From Lentilactobacillus diolivorans DSM 14421 (GTDB lineage: Bacteria > Bacillota > Bacilli > Lactobacillales > Lactobacillaceae), in assembly GCF_001434255.1 (NCBI RefSeq), contig NZ_AZEY01000053.1, positions 1 to 42,698 on the forward strand: DNA of 42,698 bases, given 5' to 3'. Below the pieces are notes generated by a model that had not been told where the DNA came from, ran no database searches, and saw only the letters and a program-made list of their open reading frames with translations. Positions 5,039 to 30,975 of the stretch are shown piece after piece. The position numbers and the translations under genes were made by a program. The number at the start of each line of letters is the position of its first letter. Positions within the stretch are counted from its first letter, which is position 1.

Positions 5039-5116
5039 GCGGGACAAGGGGCGTTTAACTTCCAGAGTGTAATCGGATTATTCGGTTACACGGCCGGAAG
5101 TTGCCTTTTGTCCCGC
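5039..5116 (+). repeat. GGTTA-bulge hairpin element, shortest full copy
   Basis: A 78-nt imperfect palindrome, 23 bp after the nucleoside hydrolase stop. The outer arms are GCGGGACAAGGGGC and GCCTTTTGTCCCGC. Inside are the family motifs: bulge GTTTA opposite T, stem ACTTCC/GGAAGT and internal loop AGA/GGCC. The apical stem is much shorter than in the other copies. It is followed by a degenerate copy of the family flank (TTGCTTGGTAGCAATCG) and then by the terminator at 5154. Confidence 0.75.
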
Positions 5117-5153
5117 GTTTTTGCTTGGTAGCAATCGCATTTACACGAACGGA

Positions 5154-5187
5154 GACTGGACAAAGCGACTATTGTTCCAGTCTTTTT
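5154..5187 (+). terminator. Intrinsic terminator of the nucleoside locus
   Basis: GACTGGACAA pairs with TTGTTCCAGTC (one bulged base) followed by TTTTT. In this repeat subfamily a terminator hairpin stands about 30-40 nt beyond the large hairpin, so the two form one composite module. Confidence 0.75.
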
Positions 5188-5225
5188 GTTCGAGAAAAAT
5201 CGGATATCCAAGCCATTTAAAAAAA

Positions 5226-5255
5226 TTGTCAGTTGACGTATAGTTGACATATTAA
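5226..5255 (+). promoter_or_regulatory. Probable pepT promoter
   Basis: TTGTCA (5226-5231), an 18-nt spacer and TATTAA (5250-5255). The leader to pepT is about 150 nt. It contains a 21-codon frame from ATG 5311 with no good ribosome site, and a C-terminal-looking fragment (VLDKRIHLKKLKK, ending at a stop at 5397-5399) that may be a relic of a lost gene. Confidence 0.5.
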
Positions 5256-5407
5256 AGAAGTAAATTCATCGAAGTTATTCTGATAGTTGGTATTGCTTAT
5301 TATGTGGGCATGCCAATTGAGCAGGCGAGGTAAAGAAGAACGCAATCAATCCAAATGTCTTGGATAAACGCATTCATCTGAAGAAATTGAAGAAGTAGGT
5401 GGGCAGC

Positions 5408-6691
5408 ATGGATGAAATTGACAGTGAGTATATCGAATCGTTGTTTATTAAATATGCAAAAGTGAATACGCGCTCGGATCCCAAAACACAGACGGTGCCA
5501 ACGAGCCTAGGCCAAGTTAAACTAGCTAAAATGATTGTTGACGATCTCAAAAAGTTGGGAATCACTGATGTTGAATATGAACCTAGTAATGGGTATGTGA
5601 TTGCAACTTTGCCAAGCAATTCTGATAAAGACCTGGCACCAATTGGTTTTATTGCCCATTTGGATACAGCGGATTATAATGCCGAAAATGTGAAACCTCA
5701 AATTCATCCAGATTATAATGGTGATGACATTGTCTTAAACAAGAAACAGGGGATCGTTTTAAGTACGCAGCAGTTTCCTAATTTAAAGAAATTTATTGGG
5801 CAACGATTGATTACTTCTGATGGGACAACGCTCTTGGGGGCTGACGATAAGGCTGGTATTGCGGCAATCCTTGGTGCGTTTAAATTCTTTTTACATCATC
5901 CGGATGTCGAGCATGGCACTGTTCGGGCGGGCTTTGGTCCGGATGAAGAAATTGGTCGTGGCGCAAAACAATTTCCTGCTGAAAAATTTGGGACAGAATT
6001 TGCTTATACATTGGATAATGGCCAACCCGGTCAGATTGAACCGGAAACGTTTAATGCCTCTCAGGCCGAAATCAGCATTGATGGAACATCGGTTCATCCC
6101 GGGAATGCTTATGGTCTTATGGTTAATGCAATCAGTCTTGCTAACGAGATAATTAATGGACTACCTGAAGATGAAGTTCCGGAAAAGAGCCGCGATCGGC
6201 AAGGGTTCTTTTTAGTGACCGATTTTAATGCGACAATTTCTAAAGCGGATTTGACGATTATTATTCGTGATTTTGACACCGACAAATTCCGTGAACGGGA
6301 GCATTTGCTTCAAAAAATTGTTGACCGGATTAATGCTCGATTTGATCAACCGCGAATTGAGTTGAATGTAACTGAGCAATATCAAAATATTGGTGATGCG
6401 ATTAGAAAGAATCCATACATTGTTAACCTGGTGTTAGATACTTATAAGCGACTGGGCATTAAGCCAAACGTTTCGCCATTTCGTGGTGGGACAGACGGTG
6501 ATTTTATCACGGCTAAGGGGATTCCAACACCCAACTTGTTTAATGGTGGTGACAATTTTCATGGCCCATATGAATGTGTAAGCACGGAAGCAATGGCGGA
6601 AGTTGCCAAAGTGGTGGTTGAAATTGTCAGGGAACATGTGGCGCAGTATGGAAACCGGGATGAGAGTGCGTTAAGAAACAGAGTGCATTAA
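5408..6691 (+). CDS. pepT: Peptidase T (tripeptide aminopeptidase)
   Basis: A 427-residue M20B-family zinc aminopeptidase that releases the N-terminal residue from tripeptides in the cytoplasm. The di-zinc site is complete: HLD (His84, Asp86), GADDKAG (Asp146), PDEEIG (Glu180, Glu181), Asp203 in TLDNGQ, and His385 in GGDNFHGPYE. The dimerisation/substrate segment SVHPGNAYGLMVNAI is at 228-242. I chose ATG 5408 because AGGTGGG lies at the right distance; a GTG three codons upstream overlaps that site. The last codons (Val-His-stop) lie inside the left arm of a repeat hairpin, so the C-terminus may have been altered by the insertion. Confidence 0.93.
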   Translation: MDEIDSEYIESLFIKYAKVNTRSDPKTQTVPTSLGQVKLAKMIVDDLKKLGITDVEYEPSNGYVIATLPSNSDKDLAPIGFIAHLDTADYNAENVKPQIHPDYNGDDIVLNKKQGIVLSTQQFPNLKKFIGQRLITSDGTTLLGADDKAGIAAILGAFKFFLHHPDVEHGTVRAGFGPDEEIGRGAKQFPAEKFGTEFAYTLDNGQPGQIEPETFNASQAEISIDGTSVHPGNAYGLMVNAISLANEIINGLPEDEVPEKSRDRQGFFLVTDFNATISKADLTIIIRDFDTDKFREREHLLQKIVDRINARFDQPRIELNVTEQYQNIGDAIRKNPYIVNLVLDTYKRLGIKPNVSPFRGGTDGDFITAKGIPTPNLFNGGDNFHGPYECVSTEAMAEVAKVVVEIVREHVAQYGNRDESALRNRVH

Positions 6692-6794
6692 GAAGCGGTT
6701 AGATCCCAGAATATAAGTACGTCACGCCTAACAGTCCGGTTTTGACTGTTAGGCGTGACGTGCTTATATGGCCGGGATCTGCTTCTTAATGCAC
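6683..6794 (+). repeat. GGTTA-bulge hairpin element overlapping the pepT stop
   Basis: A 112-nt hairpin. The outer stem is GTGCATTAAGAAGC/GCTTCTTAATGCAC (perfect, 14 bp), then a GGTTA bulge opposite T, stem GATCCC/GGGATC, internal loop AGA/GGCC, and an apical 26-bp stem with one mismatch around loop CGGTTTT. The pepT stop codon is part of the left arm. A near copy of the arm (GAGTGCGTTAAGAA) lies just upstream inside pepT. Confidence 0.85.
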
Positions 6795-7020
6795 GTTTCG
6801 GCCAAGTAGCCATAACGGATTTTAAGTCCGGTTTTGACTGTTAGGCGTGACGTGCATATATGGCCGGGATCTGCTTCTTAATGCACGTTTCGGCCAAGTA
6901 GCCATAACAAATTTTAAGTCCGGTTTTGACTGTTAGGCGTGACGTGCATATATGGCCGGGATCTGCTTCTTAATGCACGTTTCGGCCAAGTAGCCATAAC
7001 GGATTTTAAGTCTGATTTTA
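6733..7020 (+). repeat. Tandem 92-bp right-half units
   Basis: AGTCCGGTTTTGACTG recurs at 6733, 6825 and 6917, exactly 92 bp apart, and a decayed fourth start is at 7009. Each unit contains the apical loop, the right arm (GGCCGGGATCTGCTT), the same ten variable bases (CTTAATGCAC) and the flank GTTTCGGCCAAGTAGCCA. Only the first unit has a left arm. The sequence from 7020 to about 7180 is AT-rich with nothing further recognised. Confidence 0.9.
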
Positions 7021-7208
7021 ATTATTAAGCATGGCTATTATTCATATGATTAAACCATCATATCAATGTGATCTTCCTGATTTTTTCAAGAATCAGGAAC
7101 ATCCGGTAATTGAATTATCATTGTTTATTGAAAGTGTCATTTTCGGATTCATTTCTGAAAGCTTTTAGCGTACTCTGCCCTTGTCATATAAGCGATTTTA
7201 AGGTAAAG

Positions 7209-7238
7209 TATAATAAGACGTGAAACAGATTGTTTCAC
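7209..7238 (+). promoter_or_regulatory. -10 box and inverted repeat before rsmG-parAB
   Basis: TATAAT at 7209-7214, with TTGTCA at 7181 too far for a standard -35. Immediately downstream is GTGAAACA-GAT-TGTTTCAC (7220-7238). The two arms are the two half-sites of the ParB target parS, but in everted order. It may be an operator or hairpin for the rsmG-parA-parB transcript. Confidence 0.5.
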
Positions 7239-7256
7239 AATTCAGGAGACTAAATA

Positions 7257-7991
7257 ATGAACAACGATCAATTTAAAAAAGCCCTTCTTGATCAGGGCAT
7301 TGAAGTTAACGATCAACAGATGCAGCAGTTCGATGCCTATTTTAAGCTGTTAATCGCAACTAACGAACACGTAAATTTAACGACGATCACCAAAAGATCG
7401 GACGTTTATTTAAAACATTTCTATGATTCTGTGACGCCTGCCTTTTTTGTTTCACAAATTAGAGATCAACCACTTGCTATTTGTGATGTTGGTGCCGGTG
7501 CCGGTTTTCCATCAATTCCACTAAAAATTCTATTTCCACAATTGAAGGTTACGATTGTTGACTCATTAAATAAACGAATTAATTTTCTTGAAACGTTGAT
7601 TGAAACGCTCCAGCTGACTGACGTAACACTGGTACATGCTCGCGCTGAAGAATTTGGCGGCAAAAAGTCATCCAGTCGGCAAGCATTTGATTTGGTGACG
7701 GCTCGTGCAGTTGCCAGGATGTCGGTGCTTAGTGAGCTTTGCTTGCCGTTAGTCAAAGTTGGTGGCCTAATGGTTGCCATGAAGGCTGCCAAGGCTGAGG
7801 ACGAGTTGAAGGATGCTCAGTCCGCAATTTCAATTTTAGGTGGTCGGTTGGCCGATGACTATGACTTTTCGTTGCCAATTTCGGACGAACAACGCCATAT
7901 TATTGTTATCAAAAAAATAAATGAAACGCCAAGAAAGTATCCTCGTAAACCTGGGACACCGAATAAAGAACCGTTAGGGCAAAGTAAATGA
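7257..7991 (+). CDS. rsmG: 16S rRNA (guanine-527-N7)-methyltransferase RsmG
   Basis: A 244-residue SAM-dependent methyltransferase of the RsmG/GidB family, which methylates G527 of 16S rRNA. The SAM-binding glycine motif [15 protein letters not shown] is at about residues 76-90, and HARAEEF and the [10 protein letters not shown] segment follow in the usual order. The C-terminal tail is basic ([14 protein letters not shown]). The ATG start is preceded by CAGGAG. It lies directly upstream of parA, the usual order near the origin in Firmicutes. Confidence 0.95.
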
Positions 7992-8009
7992 TGAGGAGGA
8001 GGGATGCAG

Positions 8010-8777
8010 ATGAGCTTTGTAATTGCACTGGCAAATCAAAAGGGTGGCGTTGGTAAAACGACGACTGCTGTTAATTTGGGTGCCGGTATGGCTTCCTTAG
8101 GTAAAAAGATTCTCCTCGTCGATGCTGATGCTCAAGGAAACGCGACAAGTGGGGTTGGGGTTGCCAAAGCAGACATTAAGAAGGATATTTACGATGTTTT
8201 GGTCAATGAGGAATCAATGGCTGAAACCATTGTTCATACCCAACACAAGGGATTAGATATTGTTCCGGCAACCATTCAATTGTCGGGTGCCGAGATTGAA
8301 TTGACTCCTCAGATGGCCCGTGAAACCCGCCTGAAAGCCGCCCTTGATGAGGTAAAAGATCAGTATGACTATGTTCTGATTGACTGTCCACCATCGTTAG
8401 GATTAATTACCATTAATGCCTTTACTGCCAGTGATTCGATCTTAATTCCGGTTCAAAGTGAGTACTATGCTTTGGAAGGATTGAGCCAGCTTTTGAATAC
8501 CATTGAGTTGGTTAAGAAACATTTTAATCCCAATTTGAAGATTGAGGGCGTATTGTTGACGATGTTTGACGCTCGAACCAACTTGGGTGTTCAGGTTAAC
8601 GCTGAGGTCCGTAAATTCTTTAAGAATGAGGTTTATGAAACGGTGATTCCAAGAAACGTCCGGCTGTCCGAAGCGCCAAGTTATGGACTACCAATTATGG
8701 ATTATGATGCGAAGTCGAAGGGCGCTAAGAAATACATGAAACTGGCCAAGGAGGTGTTGGCAAATCATGGTGAATAA
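8010..8777 (+). CDS. parA: Chromosome-partition ATPase ParA (Soj)
   Basis: A 255-residue ParA/MinD-type ATPase that works with ParB in chromosome segregation and in control of replication initiation. The deviant Walker A box KGGVGKTTT is at residues 11-19, with VDADAQGN and LIDCPPSLGL as the A' and Walker B motifs. I chose ATG 8010 over ATG 8004 because the strong ribosome site GAGGAGGAGGG ends at 8003. The gene starts 18 bp after rsmG and overlaps parB by 11 bp, so the three are probably cotranscribed. Confidence 0.93.
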   Translation: MSFVIALANQKGGVGKTTTAVNLGAGMASLGKKILLVDADAQGNATSGVGVAKADIKKDIYDVLVNEESMAETIVHTQHKGLDIVPATIQLSGAEIELTPQMARETRLKAALDEVKDQYDYVLIDCPPSLGLITINAFTASDSILIPVQSEYYALEGLSQLLNTIELVKKHFNPNLKIEGVLLTMFDARTNLGVQVNAEVRKFFKNEVYETVIPRNVRLSEAPSYGLPIMDYDAKSKGAKKYMKLAKEVLANHGE

Positions 8778-9651
8778 AAAGAAACCAACCGGTCTTGGAA
8801 AAGGAATTGAGGCACTTTTTCAAGATAATAATGTTGACACTAGTAAAGAAGATGTGATTGATATTAAGGTTAATCAAATTAAGCCTAATCCTTATCAACC
8901 ACGTCACCGATTTGACCAAAAGGCCTTGGAAGATTTGGCAGTTTCAATCAAGAATTCTGGCGTTTTCCAGCCGATCATTGTTCGACAACCCAATCCAGAA
9001 GTTCAAGCTTACCAACTATTGACGGGTGAGCGGCGATTGCGGGCGTCTAAAATTGCCCAGCAGGAAACGATTCCAGCGATTGTTCGTAACGTCAATGAAG
9101 AACAGATGATGGAAATTGCTGTTATGGAAAATCTGCAGCGAGAAGACTTAACGACTTTAGAAGAGGCTGAAGCTTATAATATGCTAATGACCCGGCTTGA
9201 TTTAACACAGGCGCAAGTTGCTTCCAGATTAGGTAAAAGCCGGCCATATATTGCCAACTATCTCCGGATCCTGGGGCTACCAACCGAAGTTAAAGATATG
9301 CTCGAAGATAATAAATTATCAATGGGCCAAGCACGGACATTGCTTTCAGTCAATAATAAGCAGGAATTAATCAAACTGGCCAAGAAATCGGTCACTGATT
9401 CAATGACTGTTCGGCAACTGGAGCAGGCAGCCGCCAAAATTAATGGAAAAAAGGGCACTAAAAAGAAACGGGTGCCACGTAAATCTCCGTTTGTCAGAGC
9501 CTCTGAAGGCCAACTTCAAGAGAAGTTTGGGACACAAGTTTCAATTTCGAATTCTTCCCGTAAAAAGGGAAAGGGTAAAATTGAAATTGAATACGCGTCT
9601 CAGGATGATTTAAACCGGATTCTCGAGATGTTAGACGTCAACTTAGATTAA
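8767..9651 (+). CDS. parB: Chromosome-partition protein ParB (Spo0J)
   Basis: A 294-residue ParB that binds parS and spreads as a CTP-dependent clamp. The N-terminal ParB/Srx domain contains IKPNPYQPRHRFD and TGERRLRASK (CTP-binding region). A helix-turn-helix domain follows (LTQAQVASRLGKSRPYIANYL), then a basic linker and a C-terminal dimerisation domain. ATG 8767 overlaps the end of parA and is preceded by AAGGAGG about 11 nt upstream. I did not find an intact parS (TGTTTCACGTGAAACA) in the window. Confidence 0.94.
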   Translation: MVNKKKPTGLGKGIEALFQDNNVDTSKEDVIDIKVNQIKPNPYQPRHRFDQKALEDLAVSIKNSGVFQPIIVRQPNPEVQAYQLLTGERRLRASKIAQQETIPAIVRNVNEEQMMEIAVMENLQREDLTTLEEAEAYNMLMTRLDLTQAQVASRLGKSRPYIANYLRILGLPTEVKDMLEDNKLSMGQARTLLSVNNKQELIKLAKKSVTDSMTVRQLEQAAAKINGKKGTKKKRVPRKSPFVRASEGQLQEKFGTQVSISNSSRKKGKGKIEIEYASQDDLNRILEMLDVNLD

Positions 9652-9690
9652 AGATTAGGGCTCTTGGGTGAGTTAGAAAGGATGTTTAAT

Positions 9691-9876
9691 ATGTATGATC
9701 TCAATGATCTTGTTGAAATGAAGAAGCCACATCCATGTGGCACGAACCGTTGGGAAATCATCCGAATGGGTGCTGATATTAAGATTCAATGTACGGGATG
9801 TGGTCATATCGTTATGATGCCCCGAAGAGAGTTTGATCGAAAATTAAAGAAAATCCTTGTTAAAGCTGAAAAATAA
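9691..9876 (+). CDS. DUF951 family small zinc-ribbon-like protein
   Basis: A 61-residue protein of the DUF951 family, found in Firmicutes next to ychF, function unknown. It has a short metal-binding-like pattern with three cysteines (HPCGTNRW and CTGCGHIV) and a basic C-terminus. I chose ATG 9691 because AGAAAGGATG precedes it at the right distance; frames opening at 9664 or 9682 would start upstream of or inside that site. It sits 40 bp after parB and 24 bp before ychF. Confidence 0.88.
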   Translation: MYDLNDLVEMKKPHPCGTNRWEIIRMGADIKIQCTGCGHIVMMPRREFDRKLKKILVKAEK

Positions 9877-9900
9877 ACTAGAAAGAAGCGTTGTTGAGTT

Positions 9901-11001
9901 ATGTCATTAACTGCAGGAATCGTTGGGTTACCAAACGTTGGTAAGTCAACACTATTTAATGCAATTACCAAGGCCGGTGCTGAAATGGCCAACTATCCGT
10001 TTGCTACTATTGATCCAAATGTTGGCATGGTTGAAGTTCCGGATAAACGATTGGATCGGATTCAAGAATTAATCCCCGCCAAGAAGGTTGTACCGACAAC
10101 CTTTGAATTTACTGATATTGCCGGAATCGTTAAGGGTGCCAGTAAAGGTGAAGGACTTGGCAACAAGTTCTTGGAAAATATTCGTCAGGTAGATGCAATT
10201 GTTCACGTTGTCCGGGCATTCGATGATGATAACATCACGACCGTTACCGGTAAGGTTGATCCAATTGATGATATTGAAACCATTAACCTGGAGTTGGGAA
10301 TTGCTGATCTGGATGCAGTTAACAAGCGCCTGGGTAAGGTTCAACGGGCTGCTAAGGGCAGCGACAAAGAAGCTAAGGCTGAATTGGCCGTTCTTAACAA
10401 AATCAAGCCGGTTTTGGAAGCCGGTGGTTCGGTTCGATCCATTGCTTTTGATGAAGACGAGCAAAAAATTGTCAAAGGGTTGTTCTTACTAACCAGTAAG
10501 CCAGTTCTATATGTTGCCAACATTGCTGAAGAAGATATGGCTGATCCTGAGCATTCTAAGTATTTTCCTGCCATTAAAGAATATGCTGAAAAAGAGGGTG
10601 CCCAAGCTATTGGAGTTGCAGCTGCTCCCGAAGAAGAAATTGCACAGTTGGATGACGATGAGAAGAAAGAATTCCTCGAAGCTGAAGGCGTTGAGGAGCC
10701 TGGTTTAAATCGGCTCATTCGGGCTTCATACAAGCTTCTAGGCCTGCAAACCTTCTTTACGGCCGGTGGTAAGGAAACCCGTGCATGGACCTTTAAAAAG
10801 GGAACCAAGGCGCCACAAGCTGCCGGAATTATCCATTCGGATTTTGAACGTGGTTTTATTCGAGCAGAAATTATGGCCTTTGAAGATCTTGATAAATACG
10901 AAACACCAGCTGCTGTTAAGGACGCTGGTAAATTACGGCTTGAAGGTAAAGACTACGTGATGCAGGATGGCGACATTGTTGAGTTTAGATTTAACGTCTA
11001 A
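9901..11001 (+). CDS. ychF: Redox/ribosome-associated ATPase YchF (OLA1 family)
   Basis: A 366-residue Obg-like P-loop NTPase. G1 is GLPNVGKST (residues 8-16), G3 is DIAG, and the TGS domain is at the C-terminus (AGIIHSDFERGFIRAEI to GDIVEFRFNV). In the family the G4 motif is NxxE rather than NKxD, giving ATP preference; here it is VANIAEED. It binds ribosomes and affects stress responses. Start ATG is supported by the conserved N-terminus MSLTAGIVGLPNVG; the ribosome site (AAAGAAG) is distant. Length is normal. Confidence 0.95.
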   Translation: MSLTAGIVGLPNVGKSTLFNAITKAGAEMANYPFATIDPNVGMVEVPDKRLDRIQELIPAKKVVPTTFEFTDIAGIVKGASKGEGLGNKFLENIRQVDAIVHVVRAFDDDNITTVTGKVDPIDDIETINLELGIADLDAVNKRLGKVQRAAKGSDKEAKAELAVLNKIKPVLEAGGSVRSIAFDEDEQKIVKGLFLLTSKPVLYVANIAEEDMADPEHSKYFPAIKEYAEKEGAQAIGVAAAPEEEIAQLDDDEKKEFLEAEGVEEPGLNRLIRASYKLLGLQTFFTAGGKETRAWTFKKGTKAPQAAGIIHSDFERGFIRAEIMAFEDLDKYETPAAVKDAGKLRLEGKDYVMQDGDIVEFRFNV

Positions 11002-11084
11002 TGAGATGGTTCTGAGTAGCGGCCGGGTCAAATACCATTTTATTCAGCCCATTTTAAGTTAATCAAAATTTGTTATTCAGCAAA

Positions 11085-11117
11085 AACGTGCGAAGAAAGA
11101 CGACTTCCGGCCATGTC
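11085..11117 (-). repeat. Decayed half-unit of the hairpin repeat family
   Basis: The segment AACGTGCGAAG, a few bases, then CGACTTCCGGCCAT matches the reverse-orientation half-unit pattern (AACGTGCAAAGGAGAAGC then TCCGGCCATA) seen at 14640 and 42540. It is a single decayed copy between ychF and the DUF1129 gene, and explains why the frame seems to extend upstream of the true start of the next gene. Confidence 0.5.
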
Positions 11118-11184
11118 ACCGGCTTTCATTCGACTCACATGTCAGGAAGAATTTAATCGGATTATTTTAAGGAGCGAACAGCTA

Positions 11185-11919: not shown

Positions 11920-11952
11920 CGTTAAAACGAGTTATTAAATCCAGATTGACTA

Positions 11953-11993
11953 AGTCCGTTATCGAGCAATTGTCTCGATGGTGGACTTTTTAT
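11953..11993 (+). terminator. Intrinsic terminator after the DUF1129 gene
   Basis: AGTCC...GGACT with an inner ATCGAG/CTCGAT stem, followed by TTTTTATTT. It closes the rsmG to DUF1129 block. Confidence 0.75.
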
Positions 11994-12010
11994 TTGGCCG
12001 TTTTAAAGTA

Positions 12011-12107: not shown

Positions 12108-12248
12108 CAAAACAATTTCTACAAGTTAGATTGTGACATAGTAGCGTCAATCATGAGACCGTGATGAGAATCCTTTCATAATCGTTGATTGTTGCGGGGC
12201 AAAATGATAAGTTATTAGGCAATCGATATTTAAAAAGGAGCGAGATAG

Positions 12249-13400
<1,152 letters not shown>

Positions 13401-13458
13401 AACACAATATGTTATAACTTTCCGCCAATCATACATTTATTTTAATGAAGGAAGCAGA

Positions 13459-13568
13459 GTGAGACAAAAGGCGGTTAACTTCCAGAGTACAACTGGATTA
13501 TCCGAATATTCCGGGCTTGAATATTGGGATAATTCGGTTGTACGGCAGGAAGTTGCCTTTTATCTCAC
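13459..13568 (+). repeat. GGTTA-bulge hairpin element after guaB
   Basis: A 110-nt hairpin beginning 59 bp after the guaB stop. Outer arms are GTGAGACAAAAGGC and GCCTTTTATCTCAC, then bulge GGTTA opposite T, stem ACTTCC/GGAAGT, internal loop AGA/GGCA, and a long apical stem capped by CGGGCTT. It is followed by TTTCCACTCGGTAATAATCG and by the terminator at 13596, the same order as at 5039 and, inverted, at 30796. Confidence 0.88.
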
Positions 13569-13595
13569 ATTTCCACTCGGTAATAATCGTGATTA

Positions 13596-13641
13596 CACAA
13601 AGGGGCTGGGACAAAATTACTTTTGTCCCAGCCCCTTTGTG
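13596..13641. terminator. Bidirectional terminator between guaB and the metalloprotease
   Basis: A perfect 21-bp stem (CACAAAGGGGCTGGGACAAAA and its complement) with loop TTAC. It lies between convergent genes and can serve both, though T-runs are short. Confidence 0.75.
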
Positions 13642-14617: not shown

Positions 14618-14948
14618 TGGTGTTTGGGGTTACCGAGCCTAAACGTGCAAAGGAGAAGCAACTCCCGGCCATATAAGTCCCTTAATCCCATATTCCAAAA
14701 CCGGGAATATTCTTTGTGGGACTGGCTCCCGAGTCTAAACGTGCAAAGGAGAAGCAGACTCCGGCCATATAAGCCCCTTAATGGCATATCCCAAAACCGT
14801 GAATATTCTTTGTGGGCTGGCTCCCGAGTTTAAACGTGCAGAGGAGAAGCAGACTCCGGCCATATAAGCCCCTTAATGGCATATCCCAAAACCGGGAATA
14901 TGCCATTAAGGGGCTTATATTCTGGAGTCTAACCGCTTCTCTTTGCAC
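14618..14948 (-). repeat. Hairpin repeat array, reverse orientation
   Basis: Two right-half units (core AAACGTGCAAAGGAGAAGC then CCGGCCATATAAG) are followed at 14836-14948 by a full 113-nt hairpin with outer arms GTGCAGAGGAGAAGC and GCTTCTCTTTGCAC. Read on the minus strand it has bulge GGTTA, stem GACTCC/GGAGTC and loop AGA/GGCC. The full hairpin is at the 5' end of the array in its own orientation, as in the plus-strand arrays. The rest of the 14326-15058 gap holds no gene that I can support. Confidence 0.88.
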
Positions 14949-15058
14949 TCTCTATTTTCATTCCCCCCAAAATGGACTAAAATTAACATAGTTGTCACTT
15001 ATGTTCAAACGATTTAAATCCAAACATTAACAATACTTATGATAAGGGGATGGTTCAT

Positions 15059-21155: not shown

Positions 21156-21848
21156 ATGATGAAAATTTTAGTTGTCGACGATGATAAAGAGATTGCTCAA
21201 CTGCTTGAAATTTATATTCGAAATGAAGGTTACGAACCAGTTTCAGCATATAGTGGCCAAGAAGCATTATCCAAGTTGCGGACTGAGTCTGATATTGGCT
21301 TAATGATTTTGGACATTATGATGCCGGGAATGAATGGTATTGAAGTGATTAAAGAGGTTCGTAAAGATTCCCAAATTCCAATTATTATTTTATCCGCGAA
21401 GACTGAAGATATGGATAAAATTCAGGGACTGATTAGCGGTGCCGATGACTATGTGACTAAGCCATTTAACCCGCTTGAGGTGATGGCGCGAGTTAAGTCG
21501 CTTTTACGACGGACTGAGGAACATGTTAAAAATGATACCCCGGATGTTTTGGATATTGGACCTTTAACAATCAATAAGGATTCACACGAAGTCAAAACAA
21601 TCACTGGCACGCCTATTCAGCTGACGGCTTTGGAATTTGGGATCCTGTACCTGTTGGCAAGTCATCCTAACCGGGTCTTTTCGGCGGATGAAATTTTCGA
21701 GCGAGTATGGCGTCAAGAGAGTATTGTCTCGGCTAAAACAGTCATGGTTCATGTGAGCCATTTGAGAGATAAGATTGAGGACGCCACAAACGGTGAAAAG
21801 GTAATCCAAACGGTGTGGGGCGTCGGGTATAAGATTGAGAGCCATTAG
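21156..21848 (+). CDS. OmpR-family response regulator (VanR-like)
   Basis: A 230-residue two-component regulator: receiver domain with acidic pocket DDD (8-10), phosphoacceptor Asp53 in LDIMMPG and Lys in TKPFNP, then a winged-helix DNA-binding domain (LTALEFGILYLLASHPNRVF to VWGVGYKI). The best resemblance is to VanR-type regulators. GAGGTT precedes ATG 21156; ATG 21159 is also possible. The partner kinase lies 526 bp downstream, beyond a repeat array. A D-Ala-D-Ala carboxypeptidase after the kinase suggests a cell-wall stimulus or target. Confidence 0.92.
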   Translation: MMKILVVDDDKEIAQLLEIYIRNEGYEPVSAYSGQEALSKLRTESDIGLMILDIMMPGMNGIEVIKEVRKDSQIPIIILSAKTEDMDKIQGLISGADDYVTKPFNPLEVMARVKSLLRRTEEHVKNDTPDVLDIGPLTINKDSHEVKTITGTPIQLTALEFGILYLLASHPNRVFSADEIFERVWRQESIVSAKTVMVHVSHLRDKIEDATNGEKVIQTVWGVGYKIESH

Positions 21849-23544: not shown

Positions 23545-23555
23545 AAGGGATCTCT

Positions 23556-24821: not shown

Positions 24822-24900
24822 AAATGAATTGCCGTAAAAGTGTTTATTAATTGTTCAATATCCCATATAATTGAACTTGAATTGTGTTTACATTATTTTT

Positions 24901-24987
24901 ACATTGAAATGTGATGTGTGTCGAAAAGTTACATAACTGAGATTTTGAGTAGAATAATTGACTAAATTTAGTTAGGTGGCATAAATT
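24901..24987 (+). promoter_or_regulatory. Probable azlCD promoter and upstream palindrome
   Basis: TTGACT (24958-24963), 18-nt spacer, TAAATT (24982-24987). Fifty bases upstream is the palindrome ACATTGAAATGT (24901-24912), a possible operator. A similar ACATT-GCA-AATGT is found upstream of the S53 protease gene near 39980. Confidence 0.5.
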
Positions 24988-25056
24988 GTCGGGCGCGGAG
25001 CATTTAAGGAAACAGTTAAATCTGAATTTAAAGGTTTTTAAATGGAGGAAATCTTT

Positions 25057-25845
25057 TTGGGTAGAAATGCTGCAAGAATTGATAAGGATGCGCCGTATTG
25101 GAAAAAGATTTTAGACGCATCGTTACCAGTAGACTTGAGTTATATTCCAATCGGTTTGGCGTGTGGGATTTTATTGCATGCTTCGGGATTTAATGTTTGG
25201 ACAACGTTGATGGTGTCAATCATGGTCTTTTCAGGTGGTGCGCAGTTTTTAATTGCTTCACTACTGGCGACTAATTCACCAATGTTATCGGTTATCCTGA
25301 TGTTGTTTTTTCTTGAGTTGAGGTATGCGTTACTGGGATCGAGTCTTTCCAAATACTTACATGGGCAGTCGCTAGGCTTTACAGCGATATTTGCGGCGTC
25401 AATGAATGACGAAAATTACGCCTTAAACTATCTGAAGTTTTCAACCGATAAAAAGTTCACGCCCAAAGATGCTTTGAACGTCGAACACACAACTTTGTTA
25501 TTTTGGACGGTTAGCAACCTGATCGGGAGTTTAATTGGCAGTGCCATTAATATTGATTTAACGATTGTCCATTTTGCCTTGACCGCATTGTTTTTATACA
25601 TGATTGTGATGCAGTCAAAGAACGGTTTAATTATTGTAATCTGTGTTTTATCCGGCTTCTTGGCGGCTTTTTTCATGGTTCTTACCAAATCAACGCTTGG
25701 ATTGGTTATTTCGACTGTAGTCGCCTCTTTCATTGGATTTGCGGTGGAAGCTACAATCCGAAAGTTCGATCCAAAGAGTGGTTGGCTCAGGTCAATTAAA
25801 AACCTTGCTGGTGGGCCTGATGAAGACATTAATGACGAGGAGTAG
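25057..25845 (+). CDS. azlC: AzlC family branched-chain amino acid exporter, large subunit
   Basis: A 262-residue membrane protein of the AzlC family, which with AzlD exports branched-chain amino acids and analogues. Typical segments: SYIPIGLACGILLHASGF, VFSGGAQFLIASLLA, ELRYALLGSSLSKYL. TTG 25057 is chosen because GGAGGAA precedes it by eight bases; an ATG five codons upstream overlaps that site. It ends 5 bp before azlD, the usual paired arrangement. Confidence 0.9.
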   Translation: MGRNAARIDKDAPYWKKILDASLPVDLSYIPIGLACGILLHASGFNVWTTLMVSIMVFSGGAQFLIASLLATNSPMLSVILMLFFLELRYALLGSSLSKYLHGQSLGFTAIFAASMNDENYALNYLKFSTDKKFTPKDALNVEHTTLLFWTVSNLIGSLIGSAINIDLTIVHFALTALFLYMIVMQSKNGLIIVICVLSGFLAAFFMVLTKSTLGLVISTVVASFIGFAVEATIRKFDPKSGWLRSIKNLAGGPDEDINDEE

Positions 25846-25850
25846 GATTT

Positions 25851-26180
25851 ATGGAATGGAACACGACACAACATGTTTGGCTGATATTAGCGTGTTTTTG
25901 CGTGGCGTTTGCACCACGTTTGATCCCGTTACTATTTTTTCGTACTCGAAAAATACCTGACTGGTTCAATGAATGGATGAGGTATGTGCCCATTTCATTA
26001 TTCACGGCACTGGTTGTTAAGGATCTTTTCATTTCGCCAGATTATGCAGTGACTTTCAGTCGAATCCCAGAAATGGTGGCCGCTGTTATTGTGATCGGCA
26101 TTGCCTTTTGGACACGCTCGATGGCAATTTCGGTTGTCCTTGGACTGGCTGCTGTCTTTATGTTGGCGCTGTTTTTGTAG
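25851..26180 (+). CDS. azlD: AzlD family branched-chain amino acid exporter, small subunit
   Basis: A 109-residue protein with three or four hydrophobic helices and the AzlD signature FAPRLIPLLFF followed by WMRYVPISLFTALVVKDLF. GAGGAG precedes the ATG. It is the small partner of AzlC directly upstream; both are needed for transport in characterised systems. Confidence 0.9.
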   Translation: MEWNTTQHVWLILACFCVAFAPRLIPLLFFRTRKIPDWFNEWMRYVPISLFTALVVKDLFISPDYAVTFSRIPEMVAAVIVIGIAFWTRSMAISVVLGLAAVFMLALFL

Positions 26181-26237
26181 TCAATATTAGGTGATTATTT
26201 TAGATTAACATTTAAAATTAAATAAAAATTGTGATGG

Positions 26238-26265
26238 GGCTGAGACAATGTGATTTTGTCCAGCC
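26238..26265 (+). terminator. Terminator-like stem after azlCD
   Basis: GGCTGAGACAA-TGTGA-TTTTGTCCAGCC, a member of the terminator module that accompanies the large hairpins; the following TGTCATCATGGCTATTGCC looks like a decayed family spacer, without a large hairpin. The rest of 26266-26467 shows no gene. Confidence 0.65.
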
Positions 26266-26467
26266 TTATTTTGTGTCATCATGGCTATTGCCTCACGTTA
26301 CTTTTGATGACGTGTGAACATTAGAACTAAATGATGGGCTAGGATAATTGTCAGTATTAGGGGTGGTTGTGGCGTTAAACATGAAAAATTCAAAGCGCGC
26401 AAGGGATGAGTCAATCATGTTAATGGTGATATCGGGATCATTGAATTAAGAAATTAACTAAAAATCC

Positions 26468-26496
26468 TTTACTTATTAAAAGTAAGTTGATATACT
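26468..26496 (+). promoter_or_regulatory. Promoter of the nitroreductase gene
   Basis: TTTACT (26468-26473), 17-nt spacer, TATACT (26491-26496). The -35 and spacer contain TTACTT-ATTAA-AAGTAA, a possible operator. The leader is about 35 nt. Confidence 0.65.
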
Positions 26497-26537
26497 TATA
26501 AGCATTGAATAAGAAATAAATAAAGCGAGGTATTACA

Positions 26538-27140
26538 ATGAAGGAACAACTTTTAGACTTAGCTAAGAAACGCCGTTCAATTTATGCATTAGGCCGTAAC
26601 GTTGAACAATCCCAGGATGATATTGCTAACTTGATTAAAGAAGATATCAAGTGGGCACCAACTCCGTTTAACAATCAAACAACCCGTGCCGTGATTTTGT
26701 TTAATGAGAATCACGAAAAGTTGTGGGACATTGTTGCAAAGCGTCTGAAGTCGGAGGTCCCAACTGAGGCTGCTTATCAAAAGACTTTGGAAAAGATTAA
26801 CGGCTTTAAAGCTGCTTTTGGAACGGTTCTTTTCTACACTGACGAAGAAATTGTTCATCGTTTTGAAAATGATTTTGCATTGTATGCTGATAACTTTGCT
26901 GATTGGTCGGAACAAGCGCAAGGAAATGCCCAATTTGCTGTTTGGACATCATTAGCTGAAAATGGTATTGGCGCCAACTTGCAACATTACAACCCACTGA
27001 TCGATGACCAAGTAAAGGAAGCCTTTAATATTCCTGATAGCTGGAAGCTCAGAGCGCAATTGGACTTTGGCTCAATTGAAGCACCGGCAGGGGACAAAGA
27101 CTTTATCGAGGATTCGGAACGGTTTAGGGTGTTAAAATAA
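26538..27140 (+). CDS. Nitroreductase family FMN-dependent oxidoreductase
   Basis: A 200-residue protein of the nitroreductase fold, subgroup of Hbn1/YdgI-like enzymes. The FMN-contact start KKRRSIYALGR (about 10-20), WAPTPFNNQTTRAVIL and the C-terminal LDFGSIEAPAGDKDF are family features. Such enzymes reduce nitro, quinone or other electrophilic compounds with NAD(P)H. AGCGAGG precedes the ATG. The gene stands alone with its own promoter. Physiological substrate unknown. Confidence 0.87.
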   Translation: MKEQLLDLAKKRRSIYALGRNVEQSQDDIANLIKEDIKWAPTPFNNQTTRAVILFNENHEKLWDIVAKRLKSEVPTEAAYQKTLEKINGFKAAFGTVLFYTDEEIVHRFENDFALYADNFADWSEQAQGNAQFAVWTSLAENGIGANLQHYNPLIDDQVKEAFNIPDSWKLRAQLDFGSIEAPAGDKDFIEDSERFRVLK

Positions 27141-27145
27141 CAAGA

Positions 27146-27600
27146 GTGGTCTAGCAAGCGGTTAGATTCCAGAACATAAGGCCCCTAAACCCAATATTCC
27201 TGAACTTGGAATGTTGGGTTTAGGGGCCTTATGTGGCCGGAATCTGCTTGCTAGACCACGTTTTCGACTAGATAACCAATACCGAGCCGAATATTCCTGA
27301 TTTTGGAATATGGGCAGTTACAAATGGCTTATATGTGCGGAATCTGCTTGCTAGACCACGTTTCGGCCAAGCAGCCAGCCCAGAATCCAAACCCTGATTT
27401 TGGAATATGGGCATTAATGGCTTATATGGCCGGAATCTGCTTCTGATTGGCTCTTTCCACACTTTAGTGAAATTTTGATGATGATTGTTAAACCGCAAAC
27501 TGAAAACGGAATAACTTGGCAAGTTCAACCAATTTTCATCTGATTTTATTTTCAATTATCACTTCATCATGGAAAGAGCCTTCTGATTCCACGTTTCGAA
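27146..27600 (+). repeat. Hairpin repeat array after the nitroreductase gene
   Basis: A full 114-nt hairpin (27146-27259) begins 5 bp after the stop: outer arms GTGGTCTAGCAAGC and GCTTGCTAGACCAC, bulge GGTTA, stem GATTCC/GGAATC, loop AGA/GGCC, apical stem starting ACATAAGG/CCTTATGT. Two right-half units follow; the first keeps the variable bases GCTAGACCAC, the second has CTGATTCCAC and is split by a MITE. Confidence 0.87.
27449..27580 (+). mobile_element. 132-bp MITE, ISL3-like ends, 8-bp target duplication
   Basis: Terminal inverted repeats GGCTCTTTCCA / TGGAAAGAGCC bound a 132-bp AT-rich element without a gene. The direct repeat TTCTGATT flanks it on both sides (27441-27448 and 27581-27588). 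GGCTCTT ends and 8-bp duplications are typical of the ISL3 family, so a transposase of that family elsewhere could mobilise it. Removing element plus one duplicate restores an intact repeat unit. Confidence 0.87.
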
Positions 27601-27629
27601 CACTAATCGATATCCAAGAATTGATAACA

Positions 27630-27664
27630 AAAGGTTGAGACAGTTTCACGTCTCAACCTTTTTT
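27630..27664. terminator. Bidirectional intrinsic terminator
   Basis: AAGGTTGAGAC-AGTTTCAC-GTCTCAACCTT followed by TTTT; in reverse it is also followed by a short T-run. It ends the DUF1694 gene (minus strand) and blocks read-through from the array. Confidence 0.8.
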
Positions 27665-27689
27665 CATCGGCTTCTCAATATCAATAAAG

Positions 27690-28070
27690 TTACAACAAAA
27701 TTCGCCGTTTGATTTTTTTATCTGGTGAAGCGATAACCAATCCAAAATCACCTGAATGAACCTCTTGTTCAACTCGAACACCATTTTGAACGAGAATGGT
27801 AAATTGATAATTTGATTGGACCGCAAGTTTCATAAATTTTGTAATAAGCGAGTCTGGCATTTTGCCGTTGATATACATTCGGTATTCGGGATAGTGGTCA
27901 ACAATATTTTGAACCATCTTAACGGTTTCAGGTTGACGCAATTGTTGAATGGTTAACGCCAAGGCAACGCGTTCACGAAAATTACCCAAAAATGCTCGTT
28001 TTTCGTCTGGTTTAAGTTCGGGCTGACCAAACATATGCTGCTTAATAAACTCTTCTGATTCATTTGCCAT
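27690..28070 (-). CDS. DUF1694 (YueI-like) protein
   Basis: A 126-residue cytoplasmic protein resembling the YueI/DUF1694 family: FGQPELKPDEKRAFLGNFRE at the start, LTIQQLRQPE, and a C-terminal DFGLVIASPDKKIKR. Function unknown. ATG 28070 is preceded by AAAGGAGCC; the frame extends nine codons upstream without a ribosome site. It stands alone, transcribed toward the terminator at 27630. Confidence 0.8.
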   Translation of the reverse strand: MANESEEFIKQHMFGQPELKPDEKRAFLGNFRERVALALTIQQLRQPETVKMVQNIVDHYPEYRMYINGKMPDSLITKFMKLAVQSNYQFTILVQNGVRVEQEVHSGDFGLVIASPDKKIKRRILL

Positions 28071-28261
28071 TACAGAGGCTCCTTTCATCCTGAACAATTA
28101 ACGCTACTATACCAGAGTATTCTGAAATTGTCTTGTTGTTAGAGGGCAGGCTGATATCGCAAAAATTTGATTGTGATTACTGAATGGCATAACTAAGCAG
28201 AACCTGATTTTTTGAATCGATTTCCAGCCTTTAAATTAACTACTTGGTTGGCAAAAGTACG

Positions 28262-29434
28262 TTATTGATACATATATTCCCTTGTCATTGGCAAATTGTG
28301 GCCTGATGGTCCCTTTGAAATGAGATATTGCATGACGTCAATATTGCCAGAACGAAATGAAGCGGCACATGCTTGGAGATACAAGTCCCACATTCGAGCG
28401 AACCGTTTATCAAACATATCTTCAACTTGGCCGCGGACATGATTAAAATTATCATCCCAAGTCTCAGTCGTTTTCTGATAGTGACGGCGCAATGATTCCA
28501 AGTCATAAATTTGCATGCCATTTTCAACGATGTGATCAAGATTTTCACTTAAGCCGGGAATGTAACCACCCGGGAAAATCCATTTATTGATCCAGCCGTT
28601 GAGGGCACCCCCTTGCTGACGGGTAATTCCGTGAATAAGTGCGGTGCCGTTGGGAGCTAAATAATTTGCGACACAATTAAAGTACTCACCAAGGTTTTCT
28701 TTGCCAACGTGTTCAAACATACCAACTGAAGTAATGTAGTCAAATTGGACATCACCCAACTCACGATAATCCATGAGTTTGACTTCGGCGACATCTTTGA
28801 GACCCAGCAAGTTAATTTTCTGGTTGACGTAATCATACTGTTCCTTGCTCAATGTAATCCCAACAACGTGAACGCTGTATTTTTCCGCTGCCCGCAGCAT
28901 TAATGTTCCCCAACCACAACCAATATCGAGAAGGGAACGGTGTGGCTTCAAATTTAGTTTTGCCAAAATATGATCGACTTTATTTTTCTGGGCAGTCTCT
29001 AAATCATCATTAGGGGTTTTAAAGTAGGCGCAGGAATAAGTCATTGTTTTATCCAACCAGAGCCGGTAAAAGTCATTACCAATGTCGTAGTGTTCTTGAA
29101 CATCTTTGGCACTTTCTTTTTCATCGTGTGAGACTTTTGGTAGATAATGAATGAATTTTTTGTTGTGAAAGAAGCTGTTGGGATTCTCGTAAGCGGACGT
29201 AATTAAGTCTTCAATACTACCATGAATATCAATTTTGCCATCCATATAGCCCTCGCCAAGAGCGGTTGACGCATTTTTAATGATTTGGCGGATCGGGATT
29301 GCTTCGTGAAATGTGATACCGACTTTTGGCGTGCCATTCCCATAGATTTCTGTTTTGCCGTCCCAATATGTAACCTGAACCGGAATTGTAAAAGCGTCTT
29401 TCAAAAATGATCGATAGAAGTGTTTTTCAAGCAT
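28262..29434 (-). CDS. cfa: Cyclopropane-fatty-acyl-phospholipid synthase
   Basis: A 390-residue SAM-dependent enzyme that adds a methylene bridge to unsaturated phospholipid acyl chains, a response to acid and other stress in lactobacilli. Family motifs: [23 protein letters not shown] site [23 protein letters not shown] and the FPGGYIPGL segment. ATG 29434 has GAAAGGGGAAAA upstream. Monocistronic; the 28071-28261 gap on its 3' side shows no clear terminator. Confidence 0.94.
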
Positions 29435-29482
29435 TAAATTTTCCCCTTTCAACTGGTGTCATATTTTGGCTGAATCATCAAG

Positions 29483-29641
29483 AAGCTGAAATAAGCGTTA
29501 TTTTAACCAGCTTTTTTGAACAATCGCAACTATTATTGAGCGAAAACATGAGAGAAAAGACAACTCTCTGGCGTCCAACTGGATCATCTCACAATTCAAC
29601 CTGCAGAGTAAACCTCTGGAAGTTAACCGCTTTTGTCTCAC
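29483..29641 (-). repeat. Degenerate terminator-plus-hairpin element
   Basis: AAGCTGAAATAA...CCAGCTTTTTT (29483-29517) is the terminator module, and 29548-29641 is a worn copy of the large hairpin (GAGAGAAAAGACAACTC on one side, GAAGTTAACCGCTTTTGTC on the other). The apical stem is disrupted. Orientation matches 30796-30975. Confidence 0.65.
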
Positions 29642-29697
29642 TCTGGATATTTCGCCATTCATATTTATTATACCTTTTAATCTAGGCGACTAAACAC

Positions 29698-29728
29698 TTG
29701 AATGTCAGGGCTGCAAAAATGTTATAAT
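29698..29728 (+). promoter_or_regulatory. Promoter of the TPR-like protein gene
   Basis: TTGAAT (29698-29703), 19-nt spacer, perfect TATAAT (29723-29728), about 80 nt upstream of the start codon. Confidence 0.55.
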
Positions 29729-29810
29729 TACGTTGAGACTTATTTCACAACTGTTTGGGATTGTGAACGATGATAATCTTAAACGTAATTATAATGTAGG
29801 AGGGCAAATT

Positions 29811-30734
29811 TTGAAGAAATGGATATGGGTTGTCATTACCATCATTATTGCAGGTTCGGTTGGTGGTTATGCATATGCTCGTCATAGTCAAAATGAAAAA
29901 TTATACGCGCAGGCAATGCAACGCGCCAGCCTTCAAATTTCAAATGAGAATTACCCGTCGGCTGAAACATCATTTACCAACGCCTTGAAACGTAAGCCAA
30001 GCGATACAAAAGCGAGTCGGCTGCTTAATCAGACCCAATCATTCATCGCTGCCAATGAATCGTTTGACAATCAGCAGTTTGGAACTGCGAAGGACAATTA
30101 TCAATCCGTTGCCAATACAAAAAAGGGTAACGAGCAACTAAAGGATCGGGCTCAAACGCGAATCGATACAATTAAAACCATTCAGGGCAATATGAAGACC
30201 TATAATAAGCTTTATGATCAGGCCTTGAACGAGAGTGGTGAGGGAAAGTACGTACAATCTAATAGTACTTTGGACAAACTCTTCGCTGACAAATCGATCA
30301 AGCAAACCTACTACACTAGCATTTTGACAAAAGCCAAGAAGCTGCAAAAGCAAAACAACAATGCAATCAGTGGTTCAACGTTTGATTCCGGGAGTAGTAC
30401 GGCTAGTTCAAGTAATGATTTTGAACAGTCCAATTCTAATCAGAATACGACTAACAATCCCAATGTTTCTTCCAGTAGCAGTGCTAGTCTGACTTCTTCA
30501 GAAAAGAAGGCAGCCAATGATTACAAAGGATCTAATGAATACACGGTTACTAAGAAGGATAAAGAGGTAAATGGTAAGCCGATTACCGATAACCAAATTA
30601 CCAAAGCCCGTCAAGAAATTAGCGCTGCCGGTGTTGATTCGAATGCCATGAGTGATCAAGATGTCCGAAACGTTATTAAGGGCGCCCATACTAATCACCA
30701 AACGATCCAGCAGTATGTTAAAGAAAAATACTAA
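29811..30734 (+). CDS. Membrane-anchored TPR-like extracellular protein, function unknown
   Basis: A 307-residue protein with one N-terminal membrane helix (about 4-23, no lipobox Cys). Two or three TPR-like helical repeats follow (YAQAMQRASLQISNENYPSA, FDNQQFGTAKDNYQSVAN, YDQALNESGEGKYVQS), then a Ser/Asn-rich linker (about 190-240), and a C-terminal domain of some 65 residues (KKDKEVNGKPITDNQITKAR to the end). I do not recognise the C-terminal domain. TTG 29811 has AGGAGGG at good spacing; the upstream TTG at 29733 has none. Orientation outside the membrane is inferred. Confidence 0.7.
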   Translation: MKKWIWVVITIIIAGSVGGYAYARHSQNEKLYAQAMQRASLQISNENYPSAETSFTNALKRKPSDTKASRLLNQTQSFIAANESFDNQQFGTAKDNYQSVANTKKGNEQLKDRAQTRIDTIKTIQGNMKTYNKLYDQALNESGEGKYVQSNSTLDKLFADKSIKQTYYTSILTKAKKLQKQNNNAISGSTFDSGSSTASSSNDFEQSNSNQNTTNNPNVSSSSSASLTSSEKKAANDYKGSNEYTVTKKDKEVNGKPITDNQITKARQEISAAGVDSNAMSDQDVRNVIKGAHTNHQTIQQYVKEKY

Positions 30735-30795
30735 GACAAATTGATTGGTATTACATCAGATTTGTATTTAACTAGGATTCATTCAAAAGGGGAGT

Positions 30796-30975
30796 GGGGG
30801 CTGAGACAAAAGTGATTTTGTCCAGCCTCCCATTTTTGTAATCACGACTATTACCAAGCCGAAACGTGAGATAAAAGGCAACTTCCTGCCGTACAACCGA
30901 ATTATCCGGATATTCAAGTCCGGAATATTCGGATAACCCAGTTGTACTCTGGAAGTTAACCGCCTTTTGTCTCAC
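30796..30975 (-). repeat. Composite terminator plus GGTTA-bulge hairpin, reverse orientation
   Basis: GGGGGCTGAGACAAAA-GTGA-TTTTGTCCAGCCTCC (30796-30830), then GTAATCACGACTATTACCAAGCCGAAAC broken into the family spacer and flank, then a 110-nt hairpin 30866-30975. Outer arms are GTGAGATAAAAGGC and GCCTTTTGTCTCAC; read on the minus strand it has bulge GGTTA, stem ACTTCC/GGAAGT and loop AGA/GGCA. It is almost the mirror image of 13459-13641. Confidence 0.88.

Follow-up and report, generated by a model that had tools for sequence, protein, structure and literature searches.

The 42,698-nt stretch of Lentilactobacillus diolivorans DSM 14421 analysed here (contig NZ_AZEY01000053.1, called the window below) carries several copies of a long hairpin whose stems differ from copy to copy and yet stay paired. 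The locus raises the question of what keeps this shape, and whether it is read as RNA, as single-stranded DNA or not at all. We observed that the hairpins belong to a large family that tends to stand directly behind stop codons, on the strand of the gene in front. We conclude that they are probably a non-autonomous family of hairpins of the 3' untranslated region, read as RNA, that resembles the repetitive extragenic palindromes (REPs) and BOX elements of other bacteria and occurs in the Lactobacillaceae.

A reading of the window from its letters alone (the sequence-only reading) had described seven full copies. All seven were recovered as covariance-model matches of 84-132 bits, although these scores are not independent, as the model was built from the same copies. 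Folded on the seven-copy alignment, the element opens with an outer stem of 14 bp. A GGTT bulge of 4 nt separates this from a middle stem of 7 bp, and an internal loop, AGA/GGC[CA], leads on to a long apical stem closed by a loop of about 7 nt; the apical stem is shortened in the first window copy (5036..5121). The bulge had been given as GGTTA opposite a single T. The bulge itself was borne out, but its length is best taken as 4 nt, because its A pairs with the "single T", making a middle stem of 7 bp rather than 6. The outer stem had been described as varied yet paired, and a covariation test had been suggested. When the test was run on this alignment with shuffles and slid partners, the pairing signal was clear: 95.8% of cells were paired and 30 of 47 pairs had changed on both sides, neither value was reached in 500 shuffles (0/500), and sliding the partners by 1-3 columns dropped pairing to 36-43%.

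We further examined the unpaired motifs across the source genome (3.26 Mb), which has at least 150 non-overlapping covariance-model matches; 144 of these copies were fetched with their flanks and 6 were not. The hairpin structure is mostly 115-122 nt long, has three stems and begins with AGAG. Among the 143 copies without N, the bulge (GNTT/ANTT) was retained in 138, the left side of the internal loop (AGA or AAA) in 137 and its right side (GGC[C/A/G]) in 135. All three motifs stood together in 125/143, so the conservation first described for the window holds in most copies and fails in the remainder. A stricter parse, which itself demands a 4-nt bulge and such a loop, accepted 125 of the 144 copies (19 remained unparsed), with the bulge GGTT in 87, GCTT in 15, GTTT in 14 and GATT in 7, and the internal loop AGA/GGCC in 98 and AGA/GGCA in 24.

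If the fold of one strand is under selection, mismatches of the G.T type, which are wobbles on that strand, should be more frequent than A.C mismatches. Read from the left to the right half of the element, the parsed copies had 160 G.T against 15 A.C in the apical stem and 20 against 4 in the middle stem. With isolated mismatches only, the counts were 97 against 23, or 59 against 15 in distinct contexts (p=2.6e-7). A similar excess was seen in two relatives (probably L. rapi and L. dabitei), with 71 G.T against 6 A.C (48 against 6 distinct, p=3e-9); here 150 of 170 matches were aligned and 146 kept after overlap removal. Since G.T stands above A.C, the left-to-right strand is taken as the folded one, and this is the sense strand of the front gene where the two are co-oriented. 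The strand-asymmetric wobbles in these alignments thus point to a selected fold of that strand. An early count, in which A.C outnumbered G.T in the middle stem (108 vs 29), was attributed to a wrong register near the internal loop and replaced by the parsed and isolated-mismatch counts.

The placement of the copies was examined against open reading frames (ORFs). In 88 of the 144 copies, the left end has an ORF of 80 codons or more terminating nearby, and in 49 of these 88 the stop begins at -8 to -1 of the element's left end. In 22 copies (the copy behind pepT included) the stop lies wholly or partly within the element; 11 of these, at -1, are also among the 49. The copies commonly form arrays of one left half (L) and one or more right halves (R), described below. 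Of the 160 arrays beginning LR, 139 were usable, 19 at region edges and 2 inside ORFs having been excluded. The upstream ORF was co-directional in 110 of the 139, with the left end a median of 3.5 nt past its stop. Gap placement of the co-directional arrays was non-uniform (median u/(u+v) 0.015, n=109, Kolmogorov-Smirnov p=1.8e-27; one of the 110 gave no interval for the test), while the arrays behind antisense ORFs, which served as a control, had no stop bias (median 0.51, n=29, p=0.11). The placement was replicated in the two relatives, where stops lay at -10..+2 in 41/76 (141 copies examined), and at the named loci, where they lay at -9..-1 in 15/25 (38 examined). Of three inspected plasmid copies that have a left end, one begins right at the stop and another 2 nt past it. 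The flank in front of the element is A/C-rich, and AAAC directly precedes AGAG in 27/144 copies (background 0.6%). This flank bias is also seen in copies without a nearby stop, and is therefore not itself the cause of the stop placement.

Gene orientation around the arrays was also biased. The 126 gaps with arrays comprised 55 convergent, 64 co-directional and 7 divergent gaps, against 51, 139 and 80 among the 270 gaps without arrays (Fisher p=4e-7 for convergent enrichment, p=9e-9 for divergent depletion).

The sequence-only reading had left open whether the fold is recognised as RNA or as single-stranded DNA. The stop placement, the orientation and the terminator-like tail of one subfamily favour RNA over DNA. 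The element would then form the 3' end of the mRNA of the upstream gene. A structure 0-8 nt behind a stop codon falls in the footprint of the terminating ribosome, and a hairpin starting there would lie within it. By analogy with E. coli REPs, the hairpin may shield the mRNA 3' end or slow the last codons; the portion of PMC12306157 on this point (citing Liang 2015) reports that REPs within 15 nt of stop codons lower translation. Where the terminator-like hairpin is attached, it would end transcription. The fixed unpaired motifs may be read by a putative trans-acting protein, either a mobilising enzyme or an RNase or RNA-binding protein. The element would spread as a non-autonomous one, plasmids included.

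Sorted by simple motifs, the 144 copies fall into subfamily A (94), subfamily B (41) and others (9). The hairpin is about 120 nt long, and subfamily B with its terminator-like hairpin about 180 nt. Most printed B copies run on into a GTAATAATCGTGATTAC-like mini-hairpin and then into the terminator-like hairpin GGGGCTGGGACAAAA...TTTTGTCCCAGCCCC, often followed by T's. The right flank of the main hairpin is CACGTTTCGGC or CACGTTTC, not a U run. A constant closing module was not shown for subfamily A arrays.

With half-site profiles, 160 of 177 arrays consisted of a left half followed by right halves (1-5): 79 LR, 40 LRR, 21 LRRR, 14 LRRRR, 5 LRRRRR and 1 LRLR, the other 17 being solitary L, R or RR. 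Successive right units were spaced 75-109 nt apart in 138/147 cases. The first right arm is the best match to the left arm (mean outer-stem identity 0.885, n=129); later right arms had 0.78, 0.81, 0.75 and 0.59 (n=57, 31, 10, 3), and random arrays 0.60. Among 146 left outer stems, 95 were distinct. For L. rapi and L. dabitei, covariance-model matches were used, the source-genome profiles being too narrow. A different arrangement was noted at one locus of a genome that is probably L. rapi (L205:14579-15067, G016), with four complete head-to-tail hairpins that carry a different internal-loop motif, unlike the one-left/many-right arrays.

The members of the family in the window are as follows.

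5036..5121 (+): short subfamily-B hairpin with a GTTT bulge and shortened apical stem, 21 nt behind ORF 4101-5015; 83.8 bits
6680..6799 (+): subfamily-A full hairpin whose outer stem gives the TAA stop (6689-6691) of pepT, ORF 5399-6691; 129.7 bits
6733..7019 (+): right halves of the pepT copy, repeated in tandem with a period of 92
13456..13573 (+): full hairpin of subfamily B, behind an ORF (12249-13400) that resembles IMP dehydrogenase/GMP reductase; 121.7 bits
13574..13641 (+): subfamily-B tail, GTAATAATCGTGATTAC mini-hairpin plus terminator-like hairpin with perfect arms 13596-13616 / 13621-13641
14633..14901 (-): right halves of the 14831-14951 copy, repeated in tandem with a period of 95
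14831..14951 (-): subfamily-A full hairpin; 113.1 bits
21852..21971 (+): subfamily-A full hairpin that begins 4 nt past a VanR/PhoB-type response regulator ORF (stop at 21848); 132.4 bits
21902..22244 (+): right halves of the 21852 copy, repeated in tandem with a period of 94
27143..27264 (+): subfamily-A full hairpin, 3 nt past the stop (27140) of ORF 26538-27140; 123.3 bits
27265..27597 (+): additional right halves of the 27143 copy; a miniature inverted-repeat transposable element (MITE; 27449-27580) interrupts the final one
29543..29644 (-): degenerate copy with a recognisable left half, which is also hit by the left-half profile; 32.6 bits
30861..30978 (-): subfamily-B full hairpin, antisense to the flanking ORFs on both sides; 120.9 bits
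42496..42645 (-): two right-half units at the window end, with the left arm probably just outside (contig 42960-43077, -)

In the copy at 30861..30978 (-), the tail and terminator-like hairpin extend below 30861. The tandem right-half arrays, the terminator-like hairpin at 13596-13641 and the degenerate eighth copy (29543-29644, -) had no place in the sequence-only reading. The MITE in the last right-half unit of the 27143 copy (window 27441-27588) is 132 nt long, with ends GGCTCTTTCCA...TGGAAAGAGCC and an 8-bp duplication, TTCTGATT; its ends look ISL3-like. Similar-ended sequences interrupt copies at contig C45:111807 and, judged by the left end, at C35:219232. Separately, two perfect 24-25-bp inverted repeats with weak model scores lie at window 34978-35032 and 32203-32262. 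The one at 34978-35032 is similar to an apical stem found in a Lactiplantibacillus plantarum plasmid copy, and could be an AT-rich relative, now worn.

To place the family, genomes of increasing distance were searched with the covariance model. Two relatives had 146 and 136 matches, and a complete genome of the genus (G006) had 88; at least this last tally includes opposite-strand matches of the same hairpins. In a search of 60 genomes, 21 matched: the source genome, 15/23 others of the genus and 5/13 of other genera of the family; none of the 23 genomes from other families of the same order had a match. The search of Lactobacillaceae genomes proposed in the sequence-only reading found matches in 133/301, the source genome included, with 12 candidates scored per genome. 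In a phylum sample, 1/249 genomes matched, and this was the source genome itself. The family has so far been seen only in the Lactobacillaceae. Since the model scores a palindrome on its opposite strand too, some of the weak matches in other genera may be long hairpins of a generic kind. An exact-pattern scan gave, among the matches listed, Lentilactobacillus (parakefiri, rapi, dabitei, farraginis), Secundilactobacillus, Levilactobacillus, Loigolactobacillus backii, Pediococcus damnosus and Lactobacillus kefiranofaciens.

Within G006, 26 of the 34 copies scoring at least 85 bits lay on one strand, in both genome halves, with no clear replication-strand signal. None of the 50 best-scoring matches on its contig C1 (2.51 Mb) fell in about 0.68 Mb around the apparent replication origin, which is marked by a GC-skew flip near 2.3-2.4 Mb; two weaker ones did. 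In the source genome, five copies lie about 60-330 nt from contig ends (G000 contigs C16, C23, C60, C100), which suggests that these repeats break short-read assemblies.

Several observations concern mobility. Near-identical copies stand at unrelated loci. For 30 of 50 near-identical pairs, similarity on the left ended at AGAG in 26 and 1-6 nt further in 4, and ungapped similarity on the right extended for 50-66 nt, roughly as far as the tail hairpin reaches, in 8 pairs, whereas in the other 22 it ended after 0-33 or 122 nt. Plasmids of other genera carry whole or partial copies, and a copy behind fabI on a Loigolactobacillus backii plasmid has the same left junction as a copy on source-genome contig C59. 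At the pepT locus, the element was found in the source genome only, among 24 loci; 11 of these are clear orthologues with 61-72% protein identity, judged too distant for 3'-end alignment. Empty-site comparisons had been proposed; plasmid searches with element flanks gave no clean empty site. At one site the sister species L. rapi and L. dabitei differ, with a whole element and its tail in one and a plain hairpin behind the stop in the other (the single clear presence/absence). On the plasmids of Pediococcus damnosus and Loigolactobacillus backii (L297-L300), the match of the fabI-linked hairpin breaks off in the apical region and an ISL3 family transposase gene adjoins the break, which suggests that ISL3 elements use these hairpins as landing sites.

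These observations bear on the alternative in which the family is a DNA-level mobile element, its folded top strand being recognised as single-stranded DNA by a transposase or recombinase (as in IS200/IS605, REP/RAYT, i.e. REP-associated tyrosine transposase, and attC systems), with any RNA role incidental and the stop adjacency due to the insertion mechanism or to tolerance. The sharp left end of dispersed near-identical copies is what such an element would give, as are the asymmetric unpaired motifs retained in most copies, the arrays and plasmid carriage, and the A/C-rich flank with AAAC before AGAG, which also occurs away from stops. A protein family that co-occurs with the element had been proposed as a check, and we searched the 24 genomes of the genus for four. 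The Y1 transposase (PF01797) was found in 7/24, reverse transcriptase (PF00078) in 8/24, IS110 in 6/24 and TnpB in 11/24. None of the four tracks the element: all are absent from G006 despite its 88 matches, and reverse transcriptase is also absent from the source genome. Thus Y1, IS110 and TnpB, the transposase families searched, do not support this alternative, and the polar gene orientation and stop adjacency suit transcription better. We consider it unlikely, though it deserves to be kept in mind. A search for an autonomous copy among the 17 solitary L, R or RR arrays found no solitary L with a same-strand solitary R within 5 kb.

We also evaluated how the arms evolve, since the sequence-only reading had argued that compensatory change plus fixed loops means that the fold is what is recognised. 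The sister species are 95.1% identical over 201,467 aligned nt. By our own reading of their alignment, 11 of 15 indels of at least 40 nt fall inside a hairpin or the array attached to it, and a further one spans a hairpin. The two species also differ at one site in that the left arm of each matches a different right arm, and the intervening right arm is missing in one. In the source genome, at least 4/143 copies have lost the internal loop and 1 has lost the bulge, and are plain palindromes there. Template switching is reported, in the part of PMC8794818 drawn on here, to create and maintain RNA hairpins, and the rewritten arms are apparently what it would leave. Because arms are also rewritten in this way, covariation alone overstates the case for a fold. 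On these alignments the covariation appears to have a mutational part, and what speaks for function is the kept asymmetric unpaired motifs together with the wobble asymmetry.

Taken to its end, this line of argument gives an alternative with no recognised fold, in which the palindromes are kept by template switching (quasipalindrome correction) and spread by chance duplication, the covariation being a mutational by-product. In its favour are the site where two species, 95% identical, have left arms matching different right arms, the indels concentrated in hairpins and the copies (at least 5/143) that are fully palindromic at loop or bulge. Such correction would, however, erase the bulge and internal loop, yet the bulge is kept in 138/143 copies and all three motifs in 125/143; neither the roughly tenfold excess of apical G.T over A.C nor the placement at stop codons would be expected. 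This alternative is improbable. The original argument is partly supported, by the kept motifs and by the G.T asymmetry seen in this analysis, but compensatory change alone does not suffice for it. On the reading as RNA hairpins, selection on the RNA fold and template switching during replication would together keep the arms complementary, which would help explain the 95 distinct outer stems among 146 left arms.

That the family is an elaborate intrinsic (bidirectional) terminator replacing native terminators is very improbable: the GC-rich hairpin and following T-rich stretch of many subfamily-B copies, the enrichment in convergent gaps (55/126 vs 51/270) and the sister-species site with the element and its terminator-like hairpin against a plain hairpin behind the stop would suit it, but the main hairpin is followed by CACGTTTCGGC and not by a U run, a terminator scan at two window copies did not flag the whole hairpin (it allowed loops of 3-8 nt, and left the B tail hairpin unreported too), ordinary terminator-like stems behind element-free genes (found by a strict rule at 36/382 gene ends) start a median of 32 nt after the stop with 1/36 within 5 nt whereas these elements mostly start at 0-8, and fixed internal motifs and right-arm arrays are unneeded for termination.

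The reading as RNA hairpins at gene ends must itself be weighed against several results. The genes are ORF calls of this analysis and not annotation; 56 of the 144 copies have no ORF ending nearby, and 29 of the 139 arrays stand behind an antisense ORF, without stop placement. The G.T excess is weak in the outer stem (53 vs 38), and it is not significant in subfamily B alone (14 vs 6 distinct contexts, p=0.12) or at the named loci (11 vs 3, p=0.06). It would also be expected if single-stranded DNA of that strand were selected, and strand-biased deamination could add to it. As regards spread, a match stood at the orthologous place in 28/32 reciprocal tests between the sister species (15/16 and 13/16); with only one presence/absence difference, recent movement between them therefore looks slow. 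Target duplication was not established, none having been noticed in the printed flanks of near-identical copies, where no systematic test was made; terminal inverted repeats of known insertion sequences were likewise not recognised, again with no systematic search. No mobiliser was found among the four families searched. The effects on transcription, termination and the ribosome are predictions from sequence, and the element may protect mRNA, slow termination or merely be tolerated.

A bolder extension, which we offer only as a speculation, is that this is a mobile element recognised by its RNA shape and not by its sequence, and sent to stop codons, in which arrays would form mutually exclusive hairpins in the mRNA and template switching would rewrite the arms, so that the shape is kept and sequence identity is escaped. 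If the reading as RNA hairpins is true, food and beverage lactobacilli carry a large, apparently undescribed REP/BOX-like family. The antisense control, the at least 150 natural variants in one genome and the sister pair with a rewritten arm make two questions testable, namely how a stop-codon hairpin affects translation and mRNA decay outside the Enterobacteria, and to what extent template switching alone can mimic RNA covariation.

The sequence-only reading knew of no named family with this architecture, and this agrees with our comparisons. No match was found at gathering score among 4227 Rfam families over the whole window, and lax E-value scans of two copies gave sub-threshold hits only, mostly to microRNA. 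Searches of the open-access literature on repeats and RNAs of lactobacilli, on REP and BOX elements and on template switching brought up no account of the family; subscription papers were outside the scope. A reverse-transcriptase-dependent element (of the group II intron, retron or diversity-generating retroelement type) does not fit, since the enzyme is missing from the source genome and G006. A GC stem followed by a U run, as in intrinsic terminators, is found in the separate tail hairpin of many B copies and not in the main hairpin.

At integron attC sites and IS200-IS605 ends, the folded strand is recognised through its unpaired bases while the stems vary. Unlike these, the lactobacilli element is strongly tied to stop codons and transcription direction, and Y1 transposases do not follow it. 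It is like bacterial MITEs in being small, non-coding, highly paired, dispersed and presumably mobilised in trans; it is unlike them in that target duplication is not established and the similarity of copies ends at AGAG on the left.

The likeness is closer to REPs and to the bacterial interspersed mosaic elements (BIMEs), which are also dispersed, high-copy palindromes at gene 3' ends, extragenic, with a share close behind stops. According to the sections of PMC3733652 used here, a TAG stop is often contributed by GTAG REPs, whose stems are noted to contain GT pairs. REPs, as far as the sources go in the parts used, are palindromes of 20-40 bp in two described superfamilies with a GTAG or CGTC end. 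In contrast, the lactobacilli element is about 120 nt long and built of three stems, and its bulge and internal loop are fixed; it forms one-left/many-right arrays, has a terminator-like hairpin in one subfamily, and shows no link to Y1 transposases in the 24 genomes of the genus, unlike REP/RAYT systems. BOX elements of Streptococcus pneumoniae are similar in being modular dispersed repeats with a variable number of one module, a likeness drawn from their modular description and not from compared sequences. As described in the portion of PMC3049150 considered here, they have an inner module of variable number, are folded if transcribed, and are enriched between convergent genes. The same portion predicts that boxB folds with few boxA/boxC contacts, whereas here the repeated module is the right arm and its first unit best matches the single left arm. 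Together, these comparisons lead us to conclude that the element is of a known, REP/BOX-like kind, and that what is new are its three stems with fixed asymmetric motifs, the one-left/many-right arrays, the placement at stop codons and the terminator-like hairpin in one subfamily.

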